This document shows positions 36,599 through 54,421 of a stretch of 54,509 nt of DNA, in pieces. The position numbers were made by a program, and so were the translations under genes. How positions within the stretch are numbered: the first letter of the stretch is position 1; each line of letters begins with the position of its first letter. The DNA is from a virus. A model generated the notes under the pieces. The model was given only the letters and a program-made list of their open reading frames with translations, ran no database searches and was not told the origin of the DNA. The DNA lies in IMG/VR virus record IMGVR_UViG_3300020477_000032, positions 1-54,509 of that record; one strand, written 5' to 3'.

Positions 36599-37708
36599 AT
36601 GGAATTGAGTTACGATGATACGATGCATGTAAAAAAGGTCTATGAGGATTTTTATGGACAGTTGACAGATGTTTCTGATTATATGCGAATCAAGAAATTA
36701 GAAGCACTTTCGCAACTTCCACCACAACTTTTCAGTCATTCTGATGATTACTTTGACTCTTATGATATGAGTCCAATGGACATGGATTTCGAGATAGTTG
36801 ACGTATCACAACAACAATTTACGAGTTTATTAGAATACACTACATCGTGGGGATTTGAAACAACACCCGGCCGATTATTGCGGTATGGGATTAAGGAAAA
36901 GAATACAAATAGATTTATAGGTTTGATTAAAATGGGTTCACCTGTTATTAATATGAAACCGAGAAATGTAATGCTTGGTGGTGTTCCTAAATTGCCAATT
37001 TTCAACCGACATGCAACAATGGGTTTTTGTATTGTACCTATGCAACCATTTGGATTTAACTATTTGGGTGGTAAATTACTTGCTCTGATATGTGCATCGC
37101 ATTTTATCAGACGGGAATGGAACAAAAAATACGATACAGAAATATGTATGTTTGAAACTACATCCTTGTATGGTGATATAAAGGGTGTTTCGCAATATGA
37201 TGGACTCAAACCATTTATGCGTTATAAGGGTTTGAGTGAATCTAAATTTTTACAGAGTTTTTTGGATAAACAGTATGACTATTTGAGGGATTTCTTTAAA
37301 ATTAGGAATGGTGGTGTTCCTATCTTAAAACGACCACAAGCAAGTTATCGAATGAAAATTCAAAATATGATTTTAGGTATTTTGAAGAAGAATTTGAGAA
37401 TACACGATCAACAGATGTACGATGATTTTAGTAAATTTATTAGTGAACGGGTTTCTCTGACTAGCAAAAAACGGTATTATGTAGGTCATTATGGTTATAA
37501 AAATGCATTAGAATATATTAAGGGTGATGAACCAAAACTAATCAAGAATGTAAATTTTGACCGTTTTGAAATGGATAATGTCATTGAGTGGTGGAGAAAA
37601 AAAGCACAACGCAGATTCGAGACATTAAAAAAGGATGGTAGATATAGAACTGAACAGGAAATTTGGGATATTAACGAGGTCAGGAAAGAATTTGATATCA
37701 TTAGATGA
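36599..37708 (+). CDS. DUF4338 (DruA-like) protein
   Basis: A 369-residue protein. Residues about 75-225 match the DUF4338 pattern: a loop with GRLLRYGIKEKNTNRFIGLI, KMGSPVINMKPRNVMLGG, then a strand/helix FNYLGGKLLALICASHFIRR, and FETTSLYGDIKGVSQYDGLK. DUF4338 is known from DruA of the Druantia anti-phage system and from T4-like marine phages, where its role is undefined. The C-terminal 140 residues are basic and helical (KKRYYVGHYGYKNALEYIKG, WWRKKAQRRFE) and may bind nucleic acid. No strong ribosome binding site is visible; coupling to the upstream peptide is possible. Confidence 0.7.
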   Translation: MELSYDDTMHVKKVYEDFYGQLTDVSDYMRIKKLEALSQLPPQLFSHSDDYFDSYDMSPMDMDFEIVDVSQQQFTSLLEYTTSWGFETTPGRLLRYGIKEKNTNRFIGLIKMGSPVINMKPRNVMLGGVPKLPIFNRHATMGFCIVPMQPFGFNYLGGKLLALICASHFIRREWNKKYDTEICMFETTSLYGDIKGVSQYDGLKPFMRYKGLSESKFLQSFLDKQYDYLRDFFKIRNGGVPILKRPQASYRMKIQNMILGILKKNLRIHDQQMYDDFSKFISERVSLTSKKRYYVGHYGYKNALEYIKGDEPKLIKNVNFDRFEMDNVIEWWRKKAQRRFETLKKDGRYRTEQEIWDINEVRKEFDIIR

Positions 37709-45344: not shown

Positions 45345-45439
45345 TAGGAATTTTGTTGAATGAGTTATGGGCAATCGGACTTGTTTCGATTTGTTATTGG
45401 ATGGTATATTATATTTTTATGGTGAATGAGGATGAATGA
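45341..45439 (+). CDS. possible 32-residue membrane peptide
   Basis: ATG overlaps the uvsX stop (ATGA) and the frame ends 13 bases inside the purM gene. The peptide is one hydrophobic segment (ILLNELWAIGLVSICYWMVY, then YIFMVNEDE). No separate ribosome binding site is visible, so translation would be coupled to uvsX. The gap between uvsX and purM is otherwise unexplained in a genome this compact, which supports it. Confidence 0.45.
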   Translation: MIGILLNELWAIGLVSICYWMVYYIFMVNEDE

Positions 45440-46403
45440 ATCTATAGCAAAAATTGGTGAATTGGTTGAGTCTACAAACCGTTCTGAGGTTTTGGGTGAT
45501 ATAGGGTCGTTTGGTGGTTTGTTTGCTTTGCGAAAATACGAGAAACCCGTACTAGTATCTAGTACGGATGGGGTTGGTACAAAGTTAAAAGTTGCTACAA
45601 TGCTAAACAGACATGATACAGTTGGTTATGATCTTGTTGCCCATTGTGGAAACGATATTGCAGTTCATGGTGCAGAACCATTATTCTTTTTAGATTATTT
45701 TGGTACAAGCAAACTAAATCAAGATGTGTTTTTGGAAGTTATTCGTGGTATGACTGAGGGATGTCGGGAGATTGGTGCAACACTTATTGGTGGTGAAACT
45801 GCTGAAATGGCAGATTTTTATCACAACGAAGATGAATATGAGTTAGTCGGTACTATTGTGGGTGTGGTAGAACAAGATCAACTAATAACTGGTGAGAATA
45901 TCAGAAGTGGTGATGTGATACTTGGAGTACCGTCTTTGGGATTGCACACAAATGGATACACATTAGCAAGGGAGATTTTCTTTGATAAATGCGGATATTC
46001 ACCTGATGATTATATTGAGAGATTAGGTTGTACTGTTGGAGAAGAACTGTTAAAAAACCATTGTAGTTATGTTAGTATAATTGACTATATTAAGCATTAT
46101 CGACCAATTCATGGATTGGCACATATAACAGGTGGTGGTATTTCTGGCAATTTGGTCAGAATTTTGCCTGATAATTGCTGTGCAGTTATAGATAAAAAAT
46201 TATTACCCACTTTACCCATCTTTCCATTTTTAAAGACTAAGGGTGAATTGAGTGAAACAGAAATGTTTGATACATTCAATATGGGTGTTGGTTTGGTTAT
46301 TGTTGTAAATTCAGATAGTGCTAAGTTTATACTAAATAGATTCAAGCAAGTCAAAAAAATCGGAGAAATAAAGGAGTACCAAATTGGAGTTGTAATAAAA
46401 TGA
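45426..46403 (+). CDS. purM: phosphoribosylformylglycinamidine cyclo-ligase PurM
   Basis: The 325-residue AIR synthetase converts FGAM plus ATP to aminoimidazole ribotide in purine synthesis. Conserved features are SSTDGVGTKLKVA (about 45-57), GYDLVAHCGNDIAVHGAEPL, GATLIGGETAEM and VPSLGLHTNGYTLAR, then HITGGGISGNLVRIL and FNMGVGLVIVV. All look intact. purM is a known auxiliary gene of marine T4-like phages, presumed to raise purine supply for phage DNA. A second ATG at 45432 is a possible start. Confidence 0.95.
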   Translation: MRMNESIAKIGELVESTNRSEVLGDIGSFGGLFALRKYEKPVLVSSTDGVGTKLKVATMLNRHDTVGYDLVAHCGNDIAVHGAEPLFFLDYFGTSKLNQDVFLEVIRGMTEGCREIGATLIGGETAEMADFYHNEDEYELVGTIVGVVEQDQLITGENIRSGDVILGVPSLGLHTNGYTLAREIFFDKCGYSPDDYIERLGCTVGEELLKNHCSYVSIIDYIKHYRPIHGLAHITGGGISGNLVRILPDNCCAVIDKKLLPTLPIFPFLKTKGELSETEMFDTFNMGVGLVIVVNSDSAKFILNRFKQVKKIGEIKEYQIGVVIK

Positions 46404-48441: not shown

Positions 48442-49998
48442 ATGCTAAGTTTTAAAAGTTTTTTATTAGAAGCATCTTTAGAAAAAAACCATTTAGTATT
48501 GGGAAATAAGTACAGAAATCGAATTATTAGTGCTATTGAAAACGATGATTTACAACTTGCTAAATCACCCAATACTAAAATTGTGGTCATAAATAAGGAA
48601 GATTTGATTCAGAGAATAAAAGATGCAAAGACCAAAGATCAACTGAGTGCGATATTCAATCGGGATACATATCCATTTGAAACTAAAGAACATGGTAAAT
48701 TAAAACTAAAGGATATTGACAAATCACCATTTAGTGGTTATGGTGGTAGTGGTGGTAAAATATCAGGTGCTGATTGGGAAAAGGTTATATGTGTTGCTTG
48801 GAATCAATATATTATGAAACAAGATGAAGAAAAGGCAAAGAGTGATGCTGGAATTACCGAATGGAAACCACATTTTTCTGATGAAGTTTCCGAAAGTGGA
48901 ATTATCATAACAGATATAATGTTAAAAAATGGTGCAAGCAAATTCAAAAATAAACCTATGTTGCATTATGGTGCTGGAAGTGTTTCGGTTTCGGCAACAT
49001 GGAAAAAACATTACGATGATATGCGTTCGCACATTAAAGGATGGAAAGCATCAGATCAACCAGCATCTGCTAGTCGAACACCCAAAACAGATATGCGTTT
49101 TGAGAATGGTCATAAAATTTCTGCGAAGAAAAGTGGTGGTTCTCAATTAATGAGTGGTGGGGATTTTGAGACAGTAGGAACCATAGCAGTTGCTATGGCA
49201 AAGATACGAGAGCATTCGGATTTTTCCAAAGAATTGGAAACGAAATTGAAACGTCATGAATCGGATATTTTAAAAGAAGTGCGACCTAAAGTTGATAAAA
49301 CTGGTGCAAAAACTGGTAAGGGGTTTATTACCAAAGGGTTTACCGATATTTGGCAGACTATGAGTGGTGCATCAGGGGCTCAAACACAAATGAAAATTGA
49401 TCCTAAAGCAAAACGAGGAGAAAGAGCAAGTCTCAAAAAGGGTGTTAAAGATTCAGATGGGTTTTTGAAATGGATGGTAGAAACGACTAATATGCAAGAT
49501 AGAGTACAACAAAGTTTGGAATCTATTATTAATGAGGGTGATATTGGGTTTTTGTTTCAAAAGGCAATGGTTCACGAAGCAATGACAGGTCAGGTTAAAT
49601 TCGGAGAAGATTCTGATGCTTCTGCTGATTGGATTTTGAAATGGACTGAATCTGGTGAAGGAACTGAGTATCATGCAATTGGAAGTGCTGATAGTGATTA
49701 TGTGGAGTATGTTACCAAAAAAACTGGTTTTAATGTATCTTTTAAAACTTCTGGTGCTGGAAAATCTGCATGGTCTGCATTGAAAATGATTTTTGGAGAA
49801 TCCTTCGAGGAATTGGGTGGACAATATTTATCAGAACAAGATATGTTAGACGAAGGTGTAATTTGGAATTTTATCAAAAAATGGATTAGTCGAGCATGGA
49901 AGAAAATCGTTTCATTAGTTAGGAAATCTCTGAGCAAATTGATGGAGATTTTTGGACTAACTTTACAGGTAGATTTGAGAAAAAATTATACATTCTAA
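48442..49998 (+). CDS. predicted capsid-targeted protein with nuclease-like core
   Basis: A 518-residue protein. The first ten residues, MLSFKSFLLE, followed by A, match the T4 capsid-targeting sequence (such as MKTYQEFIAE of IPIII) with the gp21 cleavage motif L-x-E at position 10. Residues about 213-240 read TPKTDMRFENGHKISAKK, then GGSQLMSGG. This fits a PD-(D/E)XK-like core (D217, S227-x-K229) with Ser for the second acid, and a possible helix A acid in GADWEKV. The C-terminus (WNFIKKWISRAWKKIVSLVR) is a basic amphipathic helix. It is late-expressed, so probably packaged in the head and injected. The nuclease function is inference. Confidence 0.7.
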   Translation: MLSFKSFLLEASLEKNHLVLGNKYRNRIISAIENDDLQLAKSPNTKIVVINKEDLIQRIKDAKTKDQLSAIFNRDTYPFETKEHGKLKLKDIDKSPFSGYGGSGGKISGADWEKVICVAWNQYIMKQDEEKAKSDAGITEWKPHFSDEVSESGIIITDIMLKNGASKFKNKPMLHYGAGSVSVSATWKKHYDDMRSHIKGWKASDQPASASRTPKTDMRFENGHKISAKKSGGSQLMSGGDFETVGTIAVAMAKIREHSDFSKELETKLKRHESDILKEVRPKVDKTGAKTGKGFITKGFTDIWQTMSGASGAQTQMKIDPKAKRGERASLKKGVKDSDGFLKWMVETTNMQDRVQQSLESIINEGDIGFLFQKAMVHEAMTGQVKFGEDSDASADWILKWTESGEGTEYHAIGSADSDYVEYVTKKTGFNVSFKTSGAGKSAWSALKMIFGESFEELGGQYLSEQDMLDEGVIWNFIKKWISRAWKKIVSLVRKSLSKLMEIFGLTLQVDLRKNYTF

Positions 49999-51251
49999 TG
50001 AAAACATTTGCCGATTTTATAACAGAACAAGCAGTCAAGAATCTACACCTAGAACACATCGAAGATGAAGTGTTCAATAATGGTATAGTTGGTGCAAGGG
50101 AATCTATAAATTTTGTACAATCCTTGCGAGACATGCTTTCTGGTAGTTCAGACTCCAGTGTTGATGTTACGGTCAAGTTCGATGGAGCTCCAGCAATATT
50201 TGTTGGTACTGACCCAAGTGATGGTGAATTTTTCGTAGGAACTAAAGGTGTTTTCAATAAGAATCCAAAGTTGATTAAAAGACCAACTGACATAGCAAGA
50301 TTTGGGTATAGTGGTCAGTTGGCAGAGAAATTGCTAATTTCTTTTGTTGAGTTGAAGAAATTAGGCATAAAGAATGTGCTTCAAGGTGATATGATGTATA
50401 CGTCAAAAGACCTAGATAGCATTGTAGTTGATGGAGAACAATATATTTCTTTTCAACCTAATACCATCGTGTATGCTGTACCGAAAAGGTCGGAAATGGC
50501 ACGAAAAATATTAAAGTCAAAGATTGGTATAGTTTTTCATACAACCTACAACGGTGCGTCATTAGAAGAAATGAGTGCCGAGTTTGGAGCAGATATTTCT
50601 GGTCTAAACGAAATTGATAGTGTATGGTTTTCTAATGCAGAATATAATGATAAATCAGGAACTATCACATTTACAAAACAGGAAACCAGTGTCATCACTG
50701 GTTTCCTTTCTAATGCTGGTAAGGCATTTCGCAAGGTCAAATCAGCAGAACTCAAAAACTTTTTAGAATTCCAAGAATCACTTCCATCTGGAGTCGCAGG
50801 GATAAAAATAAAAACTTATCTCAACTCACTGATTCGACAAGGTACTTCTATAACAGGGGTCAAAGATCATGTTAGCAATTATGTCCAGTATGTTACAGAC
50901 TATGCGGAAACTAAAACAATTGGAAAAGTCAAAACCGAAAAAGCAAAAAAAGCAAAGACCGAACAAAGAGATCAAATCATCGCAAACATTAAGCAAAATG
51001 AAAGAACCATTCTAGCAGTCATGGAAATATATGCGAATCTGACGTATTCCAAAGAAATGATTTTGAACAAATTGGATACGGGGGTTCGTTTATTTCCCAA
51101 TACATTTATTAGAACTGATAATGGTTATAAGATTGTTAATGACGAAGGATATGTTGCCATTGATAAAATGAAGGGCAACGCAGTCAAACTGATAGACCGA
51201 TTGGAGTTTTCATATAACAACTTCAACGGTATTAAAAACTGGGATAAATAG
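49998..51251 (+). CDS. predicted capsid-targeted protein with KxDG nucleotidyltransferase motif
   Basis: A 417-residue protein. MKTFADFITE (1-10) then Q is a targeting sequence with a cleavable I-T-E. Residues 58-70 (TVKFDGAPAIFVG) contain K60-x-D-G, motif I of covalent nucleotidyltransferases (DNA and RNA ligases, capping enzymes). GTKGVFNKNPK, VLQGDMMYT (motif III-like, about 127-135) and KIGIVFHTTYNG (motif IV-like, about 175-186) follow in the family order. This family (HLEHIEDEVF, then GARESINFVQSLRDML) is widespread in T4-like marine phages, often annotated as unknown. A ligase-like activity acting on injected DNA or host RNA is plausible but unproven. It overlaps the upstream stop by one base. 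Confidence 0.75.
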   Translation: MKTFADFITEQAVKNLHLEHIEDEVFNNGIVGARESINFVQSLRDMLSGSSDSSVDVTVKFDGAPAIFVGTDPSDGEFFVGTKGVFNKNPKLIKRPTDIARFGYSGQLAEKLLISFVELKKLGIKNVLQGDMMYTSKDLDSIVVDGEQYISFQPNTIVYAVPKRSEMARKILKSKIGIVFHTTYNGASLEEMSAEFGADISGLNEIDSVWFSNAEYNDKSGTITFTKQETSVITGFLSNAGKAFRKVKSAELKNFLEFQESLPSGVAGIKIKTYLNSLIRQGTSITGVKDHVSNYVQYVTDYAETKTIGKVKTEKAKKAKTEQRDQIIANIKQNERTILAVMEIYANLTYSKEMILNKLDTGVRLFPNTFIRTDNGYKIVNDEGYVAIDKMKGNAVKLIDRLEFSYNNFNGIKNWDK

Positions 51252-51262
51252 GAGATTTATAC

Positions 51263-52522
51263 ATGGTGGATACATTAGAAATTCTTAGGGATGATTCAAA
51301 CATTTTATGGACTTGTATAGCGGCATTTTTAGTGTTTTTTATGCAAGCAGGGTTTGCGTTAGTTGAAGCAGGGTTCACCAGAGCAAAGAATGTATGTAAT
51401 ATAATCATGAAGAATTTAATGGATGTTTCCATTGGGTCTGTTATTTTTTGGTTATTTGGTTTCGGTTTGATGTTTGGTGCATCGAATGGATATTTCGGTA
51501 CAAATTTCTTTATGTTCGATGGTTCGTCTGAAATAGCAAAGGAAACAGGAAATTCGGTTGGTTTTAACTGGGCATTTTTATTATTTCAAACAGTGTTTTG
51601 TGCAACTACAGCAACCATAGTTAGTGGTGCGGTAGCAGAACGTACTAAATTCACATCGTATTTGTTATTTTCACTAATTATTTGTGGTTTGATTTATCCT
51701 ATTTTTGGTTCGTGGGCATGGGGTAGTCTATATGCTGGTGAGGGATGGTTGGAAATAATAGGGTTTCACGATTTTGCTGGTTCAACTGTAGTTCATTCTA
51801 TTGGTGGTTGGGCGGCATTAGCAGGGGCAATAGTTGTAGGTGCTAGACGAGGAAAATATTTAGAAAATGGAACTATGAGATTGATTGCACCACATAATGT
51901 ACCAATAGGTGCGTTGGGTGTGTTTATTCTATGGTTGGGTTGGTTTGGATTTAATGCTGGTAGTACAACTTCACTTGGTGGAGATTTGGCATTTATTGCA
52001 GTCGTTACAAATTTATCTGCATGTGCAGGAGCAATTGGTGCTGGTTTATTGAGTTGGTTTTTATATCGAAAACCAGACCCAACGTTAGCATTGAATGGTG
52101 CTTTAGCAGGGTTGGTTTCGATAACTGCTGGATGTGATATTATTTCACCTAGTATGGCAGTTTTAACAGGTTTGATTGGTGGTGTTATTGTTGTTAGTGC
52201 AGTTAGATTATTCGATAGGTTGAAAATTGATGATCCAGTTGGTGCAATTTCGGTGCATGGAGTTTGTGGTGCATGGGGTACGTTAGCAATAGGATTGTTA
52301 AGTTCTAAAGCAAGTCTTGGACAACTCTTTATACAGTCCGTTGGAGTTTTTGTTGCCTTTTTATGGGCATTTGGACTGAGTTTTCCATTATTTCTTCTAA
52401 TCAAACATACTATCGGAATCAGGGTTGATGAACGTGAAGAATTTGAAGGTTTAGACATTGCAGAGCATGGAATTTCTGGTTACGAAGGAGTACCGATTCT
52501 AGTGAATCAAAGAGAGATGTAG
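51263..52522 (+). CDS. amtB: ammonium channel AmtB
   Basis: A 419-residue Amt/Mep/Rh channel that moves ammonium/ammonia into the cell. About 11 hydrophobic helices are visible. Pore signatures are intact: D170 in FHDFAGSTVVH with the first pore His (H178), the second pore His H332 in DDPVGAISVHGVCGAWG, and AERTKF and GFNAGST in the conserved core. The cytoplasmic C-terminal region FEGLDIAEHGISGYEG keeps the allosteric pattern of host AmtB, where PII proteins bind. No glnK/PII gene is nearby. It lies between predicted capsid-targeted genes behind a late promoter and has a strong TAGGAG site. It is full length and most likely functional. Confidence 0.95.
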   Translation: MVDTLEILRDDSNILWTCIAAFLVFFMQAGFALVEAGFTRAKNVCNIIMKNLMDVSIGSVIFWLFGFGLMFGASNGYFGTNFFMFDGSSEIAKETGNSVGFNWAFLLFQTVFCATTATIVSGAVAERTKFTSYLLFSLIICGLIYPIFGSWAWGSLYAGEGWLEIIGFHDFAGSTVVHSIGGWAALAGAIVVGARRGKYLENGTMRLIAPHNVPIGALGVFILWLGWFGFNAGSTTSLGGDLAFIAVVTNLSACAGAIGAGLLSWFLYRKPDPTLALNGALAGLVSITAGCDIISPSMAVLTGLIGGVIVVSAVRLFDRLKIDDPVGAISVHGVCGAWGTLAIGLLSSKASLGQLFIQSVGVFVAFLWAFGLSFPLFLLIKHTIGIRVDEREEFEGLDIAEHGISGYEGVPILVNQREM

Positions 52523-52943: not shown

Positions 52944-53396
52944 ATGAAATCGTTCAGGAACTTCATCACCGAAAATAGGAATTTGGCATTACAAATTTCA
53001 GATGTTATATATAGATTTACCAGTGGTCTTCTTTTCGGTGATGATAGAGTTCAGTGCCATGAATCTGTCAAAAAAGTTAAAGAAGAAGGTCAGGAATTAC
53101 AGGTTGGTAAATTTAGATTTCACGGAATTCTAAGTTTCATAGAGTGGGATGAGTCAAAATGGGATTTATTTGAAAAGGTTGTAAAATCCGATACATCGTG
53201 GAAAAAAATAAATATCAAAGAATTTCAGAATTTGGTTATAGACATTTCTGATGGGTCGGTAAATGGGCATAGTTTTATAAAGGTATTTGATTATTATATT
53301 GACCCGTATTTTAATTCTGCTGGTTTAAGTTTTCAGGAAATACAAAAATCTTGTAAATGGTTTGCAAAGATTTACAAGAAAATGGGGATAATATGA
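52944..53396 (+). CDS. predicted capsid-targeted protein, unknown
   Basis: A 150-residue protein beginning MKSFRNFITE then N: the 10-residue targeting sequence with the I-T-E cleavage motif exactly at position 10. The mature part is alpha/beta with several aromatic strands (FRFHGILSFIEWDESKWDLF, FIKVFDYYIDPYF) and a basic C-terminal helix (KSCKWFAKIYKKMGII). No catalytic motif is recognised. Its stop overlaps the next gene by four bases (ATGA). Confidence 0.72.
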   Translation: MKSFRNFITENRNLALQISDVIYRFTSGLLFGDDRVQCHESVKKVKEEGQELQVGKFRFHGILSFIEWDESKWDLFEKVVKSDTSWKKINIKEFQNLVIDISDGSVNGHSFIKVFDYYIDPYFNSAGLSFQEIQKSCKWFAKIYKKMGII

Positions 53397-54421
53397 TAAG
53401 TTTTAAGCAATTCATTACAGAAGCAGTTGGACAACGAGAACTGAAAGACATGGTTTTTGTTCCTTTCAGTAGAACTGATGCCAGTTCAGATAATGTTAGT
53501 TTTATGCGACAGTTGGTAATGCCAATGTCTAAAAAGATGTCTCAACGTCTTTTTGGTGAAAGAAATCGAGTTAAAGCGGCACATATCACCAGTGAAGGTT
53601 CTGTGGATGGATTGGTTAAAATGCAAGGAACCCAAAAATCATTGGCATGTATGACCAATCCATCTGACCCAAAAATATGGAGAGAAGGTGTTGCAACGGG
53701 TGGTGGTATTGTTTTTATTGTTGAAGGTTATCCTACACTCATTGCTAATATTGACTTATATAGCAGATTAGACCAACAAGGTAGACGTTTTATACCTTTG
53801 TCGAGTTTATTTCCACTTGACAGAGGTGAGTTCACATATCCACCTGAGCATGACAAGTTAATGAAGCAATTACGCAGTACAATATTCAGACAGATTAAAG
53901 AAGCACAGAGCAATATTCTTTTCAATTTGGTTTCTAGCAAATTAGTCAAGGGCAATGATAACTTGGTAAATCATATAATGCAGTCTGGATTCCATAACAT
54001 TCCAAAACTGAAAATCAAGGAATGGGGTGATTGGTTGGGTGTTGATAAAAAACTCTATGGAAAAATTATGTCATTTTGTATTAAGATGTGGTTCGATGAA
54101 ATGGAAAAAATATGGAAATCCAACTACAGAAAAATGGAATATATTTTCGATCCAGAAATGATGTCAGAACGAAGGATGGGTTGGGATGAAATCAATTTGG
54201 TTGATATAAAATTGCTCAAGTGTTATGTTGTATCTGAAACTGCTGGTGATTTATGGGGAGATTTCGGAGTACAAGATGACGATATTTGGAATGATGGTGA
54301 AGAAGTTGATACAGGTGGAGTTCCAATTGCTGGATATTTGGAAATTGATATGTCTCATGATGAATATTCAGAAAAGGGTTGGAAGGCAGTTCGAGATATA
54401 CAACAGGAGATACGTCAATGA
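53393..54421 (+). CDS. predicted capsid-targeted protein, possible effector
   Basis: A 342-residue protein. ATG 53393 overlaps the preceding stop and gives MISFKQFITE then A, a targeting sequence with I-T-E at position 10; the frame is open 12 codons further but that start falls inside the previous gene. The central region (VKAAHITSEGSVDGLVKMQG, QKSLACMT, GGGIVFIVEG, LDQQGRRFIPL) loosely recalls ADP-ribosyltransferase-like phage effectors with H-x-T and a K-S-L strand. Without a search this is only a suggestion. T4 Alt is a known packaged ADP-ribosyltransferase, so the idea fits. Its stop overlaps the next gene. Confidence 0.7.
   Translation: MISFKQFITEAVGQRELKDMVFVPFSRTDASSDNVSFMRQLVMPMSKKMSQRLFGERNRVKAAHITSEGSVDGLVKMQGTQKSLACMTNPSDPKIWREGVATGGGIVFIVEGYPTLIANIDLYSRLDQQGRRFIPLSSLFPLDRGEFTYPPEHDKLMKQLRSTIFRQIKEAQSNILFNLVSSKLVKGNDNLVNHIMQSGFHNIPKLKIKEWGDWLGVDKKLYGKIMSFCIKMWFDEMEKIWKSNYRKMEYIFDPEMMSERRMGWDEINLVDIKLLKCYVVSETAGDLWGDFGVQDDDIWNDGEEVDTGGVPIAGYLEIDMSHDEYSEKGWKAVRDIQQEIRQ

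Follow-up and report, generated by a model that had tools for sequence, protein, structure and literature searches.

The window analysed here (the whole 54,509-nucleotide stretch of IMG/VR virus record IMGVR_UViG_3300020477_000032) encodes a DUF6267 protein that we interpret as a divergent RNA-ligase-type adenylyltransferase, injected with the genome in the clade of phages whose copies carry a T4-type leader (rough probability 0.55). The reaction class is known; DUF6267 would be an unrecognised and very divergent family within it. The gene is:

49998..51251 (+), DUF6267 coding sequence, 417 aa, predicted divergent covalent nucleotidyltransferase (PF19782 / PHROG_455)

The reading frame is intact over exactly 49998-51251 (+), with an ATG start and the N-terminus MKTFADFITEQ. 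In the profile search it matched Pfam PF19782 (DUF6267) with 346.5 bits against a cut-off of 27 (E 3e-103), the only family above the curated Pfam cut-offs; PF09414 (RNA_ligase) and PF09511 (RNA_lig_T4_1) were not reached. The same ORF corresponds to PHROG_455, category unknown function. Using tblastn, we found relatives in 454 phage records, with cyanophages predominating and Pelagibacter phage HTVC008M, Methylophilales phage Melnitz and Stenotrophomonas phage DLP6 among the other carriers. Nearly every one of the matches listed is annotated as hypothetical, in agreement with the original prediction that the family is common in marine T4-like phages and has no assigned activity. Each of three viral-contig scans gave more than 550 confirmed relatives, counts to be read as at least that many. 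A scan of prokaryote genomes yielded 40 DUF6267 loci, mostly on MAG contigs that resemble contaminating phage sequence; they did not make up a clear family of cellular origin. DUF6267 is mentioned nowhere in the literature searched.

The motifs on which the interpretation is built are located as follows (bridge proteins are the jumbo-phage proteins described below):

50175..50186 (+), motif I, K60-F-D-G, with K60 the predicted AMP-accepting lysine (K60, D62 and G63 in 241/241)
50229..50246 (+), motif Ia-like FFVGTK, residues 78-83, K83 invariant (alignment; bridge-protein comparison)
50382..50390 (+), motif III-like Q129-G-D131, with D replacing the usual E (Q129 and D131 in 241/241)
50457..50474 (+), motif IIIa-like P154-N-T-I-V-Y159 (N155 and Y159 never vary, either in DUF6267 or in the bridge proteins)
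50556..51089 (+), mostly helical insertion, residues 187-364, separating IIIa from IV (model; alignment)
51144..51155 (+), motif IV, E383-G-Y-V386 (E383 and G384 in 238/238 ungapped)
51186..51200 (+), motif V, K397-L-I-D-R401 (K397 in 238/238 ungapped)

In the alignment, K60, D62, G63, K83, Q129, D131, Y159 and H181 are identical in all 241 homologues, and E383, G384 and K397 in all 238 that are complete at those positions. Distant members at about 20-25% identity (the Xanthomonas jumbo phage XaC1 and two Firmicutes-MAG sequences were compared) keep the full catalytic set, and conservation of the KxDG and associated positions is well beyond chance. Motif spacings are 67-75 residues from I to III, 156-264 from III to IV and 11-15 from IV to V; the insertion between IIIa and IV is about 100 aa shorter in the short forms of the family. 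The original prediction had described a KxDG motif followed in order by motif III-like and IV-like segments. These are present, as Q129-G-D131 and E383-G-Y-V386, and K60, whose conservation across homologues had been set beforehand as a refuting test, is kept in 241/241.

An AlphaFold2 model built from 138 sequences (mean pLDDT 91.3, pTM 0.88) places these residues on a consistent set of strands. K60 closes strand 55-60 and D62-G63 leads into strand 66-71, the acidic position of motif III (invariably D131 and not the usual E) lies inside strand 127-135, E383 stands just before strand 384-389, and K397 falls within strand 394-398. On the predicted-structure test, the model shows the order strand-KxDG-strand, strand-D, EG-strand, strand-K, which leaves the nucleotidyltransferase reading unrefuted. 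Residues 1-12 are modelled as disordered (pLDDT <50). The OB domain is absent from the model: the chain stops 20 residues past K397 with only helix 401-410 there, and beyond the helical insertion no nucleic-acid-binding C-terminal domain is seen.

Searching the PDB by fold gave nothing reaching E 0.001. The rows of highest probability are human DNA ligase I (1x9n) and an archaeal DNA ligase (4eq5), with a probability of 0.51 but an E of 0.12 for the best ligase rows, and an archaeal RNA ligase is also among the best non-noise matches; by this model the resemblance to ligases is only suggestive. Carbonic-anhydrase rows in the same search (probability <=0.06) were set aside as noise. PDB sequence searches with the single protein and with family, bridge and joint profiles gave no meaningful match. 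In BFVD, the fold search also led outside the family, to a protein of PA5oct (E 3e-5) and to one of Atu_ph07 that is named RNA ligase (E 1e-3, probability 0.97).

Direct hhalign comparison of DUF6267 with profiles of T4 Rnl1, T4 Rnl2, bacterial RNA ligase and DNA ligase was not significant (probability <=2%) with the insertion kept, with it removed or with the short forms used, and some control families equalled the ligase profiles. A connection appears through jumbo-phage ORFs that serve as a bridge, including Atu_ph07 AUZ94878 (324 aa, equal in length to the BFVD entry), PA5oct QCG76109 (446 aa) and Phosso XYS97603. They carry KLDG/KIDG, a motif III E, PN(T/S/V)(I/V)xY, EGVV/EGYV and K(V/I)(V/F)D. 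Their own link to RNA_ligase lies under the Pfam cut-off, at 18.7 bits against 27 (E 0.002) for AUZ94878 and more weakly (E 0.085) for the Phosso protein. The profile of this bridge, made of four sequences, aligned with DUF6267 over 247-259 columns at a probability of 83-90% (E 2e-6 to 9e-6); motifs I, IIIa, IV and V line up, and FFVGTK stands opposite ERKG/QRKD/TSREG; as controls, 14 same-locus profiles and reversed profiles all stayed at <=0.5%. K60, D62, G63, G130, N155, Y159, E383, G384, K397, F404 and N408 recur in each of the 11 jointly aligned sequences. The profile comparison with ligases that had been proposed stays below significance when made directly; RNA-ligase-like jumbo-phage proteins span most of the distance.

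We therefore base the superfamily assignment on the motifs, the predicted topology and the bridge, and not on a direct match. The invariant motifs, the strand topology and the profile-profile link support the covalent-nucleotidyltransferase reading, and from sequence and model DUF6267 very probably belongs to that superfamily. It could be objected that the protein is a structural or scaffolding one whose KxDG and EGxV arose by chance, as the direct profile and PDB fold comparisons under significance might suggest; but it is exactly the catalytic positions that are strictly invariant across very divergent members, the strand positions match, and the bridge to KxDG/EGVV proteins is backed by controls, so that we regard a chance resemblance as very improbable.

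The N-terminus of the protein and those of neighbouring ORFs resemble T4 capsid-targeting leaders:

49998..50027 (+), capsid-targeting-like leader propeptide MKTFADFITE, residues 1-10, prohead-protease cleavage predicted after E10 (T4 ipII/ipIII comparison)
48442..49998 (+), 518-aa ORF with leader MLSFKSFLLEA, without known domain (sequence)
52944..53396 (+), 150-aa ORF with leader MKSFRNFITEN (sequence)
53393..54421 (+), 342-aa ORF with leader MISFKQFITEA (sequence)

Set against the T4 record, MKTFADFITE|Q here corresponds to MKTYQEFIAE|A in ipII/ipIII, and short T4 capsid-targeting propeptides are enough to package foreign proteins (PMC3012670, PMC5694885). The stop of the 518-aa ORF overlaps the DUF6267 ATG by one base, and weak relatives of this ORF lie at the corresponding place in HTVC008M and Melnitz. 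By their T4-type leaders, the ORFs at 52944-53396 and 53393-54421 (+) are further candidate injected proteins.

Among the DUF6267 ORFs, 59/246 match the leader pattern; the figure is 95/1367 for the remaining ORFs of the same loci and 7/1613 after shuffling. A leader is present in no more than 58-59 of the roughly 241 family members (57/160 long forms versus 1/81 short forms, the latter being cyanophage), and cyanophage DUF6267 usually starts directly ahead of a conserved HxxHxED block. Judged from the sequences, the leader is a feature of a clade and not of the family as a whole. The capsid targeting proposed in the original prediction accordingly stands for the protein of the window and its close relatives, by the leader match, and does not extend to the family; in the leader-bearing clade, we infer that the protein is likely packaged in heads.

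A recurrent partner was detected next to the gene. In 133 of the 188 loci having at least 1.5 kb downstream, we found an NMNAT-like HIGH nucleotidyltransferase (FGRFNPPTxGH...SASKxR), which lies directly downstream in 105 loci and is fused to DUF6267 in three (L210, L219 and L221; 590-591 aa). Neither the window nor loci L001/L002 showed this partner within the few kb of downstream sequence that they contain. Cyanophage S-SM1 has DUF6267 as T4-GC71, directly followed downstream by T4-GC190 (cytidyltransferase), and the T4-GC190 product is reported from purified S-SM1 virions (PMC3037559). In the article text examined, no proteomics result named DUF6267. S-CREM2 virions contain a cytidylyltransferase, for which the original authors note possible carry-over; the S-CREM2 virion protein ORF160 (297 aa) has a size compatible with a short DUF6267, a likeness of size alone with no identity claimed. 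In the S-PM2 record AJ630128 (L456:2498-4277), DUF6267 is split into a 193-aa fragment (T4-GC71) and a T4-GC190 ORF overlapping its second half, unlike the 591-aa S-PM2 protein in UniProt (A0A0M6VVW4); the two forms probably reflect a frameshift or a sequencing difference.

The frequency of this partner, together with the lack of an OB or C-terminal nucleic-acid-binding domain past the helical insertion, would fit an adenylyltransferase that does not ligate and instead transfers a nucleotide, AMP or another, to a protein, a small molecule or the end of an RNA, in concert with the adjacent HIGH enzyme. We consider this unlikely: the nearest relatives found are RNA-ligase-like, and the partner was not seen in the window or L001/L002 over the few kb covered. 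More speculatively, DUF6267 and the adjacent or fused enzyme might form one module, packed into the head in some phages, in which DUF6267, as a ligase or adenylyltransferase, takes AMP from NAD+ and sets NMN free, and the NMNAT-like enzyme turns that NMN back to NAD+; we give this idea little credence, although, if true, repair could run within the first minute of infection even in hosts whose defences deplete NAD+.

Upstream of DUF6267, the window encodes uvsX and a DnaB-type helicase, as do relatives, where the gene often comes after uvsX, gp41 and mazG. Between the uvsX and helicase genes of the window lies an AIR synthase-related gene (45426-46403, +; PF00586/PF02769), a purM-like gene of purine synthesis. 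Directly downstream of DUF6267, an ammonium transporter (51263-52522, +; PF00909, E 1e-117) is likely an auxiliary metabolic gene for nitrogen uptake. A 369-aa ORF elsewhere (36599-37708, +) has a Druantia DruA domain (PF14236, E 3e-13), which is unexpected in a T4-like phage.

The frequent position after uvsX, gp41 and mazG speaks for a further proposal, in which DUF6267 fills the place of the DNA ligase that marine T4-like phages lack, as a non-orthologous substitute for T4 gp30 sealing Okazaki fragments or the nicks of injected DNA. It is also favoured by ten DUF6267-bearing genomes of marine T4-like phages, which gave no match to PF01068, PF01653, PF09414 or PF09511 in a search where T4, as positive control, gave all three expected matches. 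DNA ligases require an OB-fold domain, however, and here that domain is absent from a chain that ends 20 residues past K397; host LigA could do the sealing. DUF6267 also occurs beside classical ligases in three distant phages, with a DNA ligase in DLP6 and with DNA and RNA ligases in XaC1 and Vibrio 2.275.O, and because these carry both it is not simply a ligase replacement. Service as a gp30 substitute is in our judgement improbable.

The absence of the OB domain points to an RNA-ligase-like enzyme over one of the DNA-ligase or capping type. We infer with some confidence that DUF6267 performs nucleic-acid ligation; were it to ligate, RNA would be a somewhat better candidate substrate than DNA, given the missing OB domain and the RNA-ligase-like character of the bridge. 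In the mechanism we propose, K60 would attack ATP to form lysyl-AMP, with D131 and E383 holding ribose and metal and K83 and K397 holding the phosphates; the AMP would then pass to a nucleic-acid 5'-phosphate, and that end would be sealed to a 3'-OH. In the leader-bearing clade, the T4-type leader would direct the protein to the prohead, where the prohead protease would cut after E10. The mature enzyme may then enter the host along with the phage DNA and repair RNA (tRNA most likely) or nicked DNA as infection starts. Sealing of injected DNA and modification of host RNA, the examples given in the original prediction, are candidate roles.

The assignment would give the ten marine T4-like genomes examined their only recognisable ligase-type enzyme, and K60-AMP is a precise prediction that follows from it. 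If the leader acts as in T4, a nucleic-acid-modifying enzyme would be delivered with the genome, akin to T4 Alt but directed at nucleic acids. Molecular biology might also gain a new ligase from DUF6267.

Among known systems, the jumbo-phage bridge proteins are the closest in layout: like DUF6267, they have KxDG, a basic Ia segment, PNxIxY after motif III, a long insertion before EG(V/Y)V, and K-x-x-D followed by F and N. They differ in having E in motif III and about 80-130 aa extra C-terminal to motif V, and they are without the T4-type leader and the HxxHxED N-terminal block. The T4 RNA ligase 1 and 2 families (PF09511, PF09414) share the motif order I-Ia-III-IIIa-IV-V and likewise have no OB domain, and in a best-path alignment the EGYV and motif V lysine of T4 Rnl1 are in register with DUF6267. 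Compared with the T4 enzymes, DUF6267 has D for E in motif III, 156-264 residues from III to IV, and its helical domain inserted instead of C-terminal. ATP-dependent DNA ligases (PF01068) can also be brought into register by best-path alignment at the KWDG, QGD/DGE and EG motifs, but DUF6267 is without their OB domain and the fold-match E-values are not significant. For an earlier divergent KxDG family, C12orf29/RLIG1, minimal RNA ligase activity was demonstrated (PMC11071452); it has no phage-head targeting, and we liken it to DUF6267 by description, not by sequence. What is distinctive in DUF6267 is the D of motif III, the inserted helical domain, the NMNAT-like enzyme so often beside it and the head-targeting leader that some members carry. 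In this last respect it resembles T4 IPII/IPIII and Alt, which have a short N-terminal leader ending x-E, with MKT-aromatic-xx-FI-x-E shared between ipII/ipIII and the DUF6267 protein; the mature part is an internal protein or an ADP-ribosyltransferase in those T4 proteins, whereas in DUF6267 it is a predicted nucleotidyltransferase.
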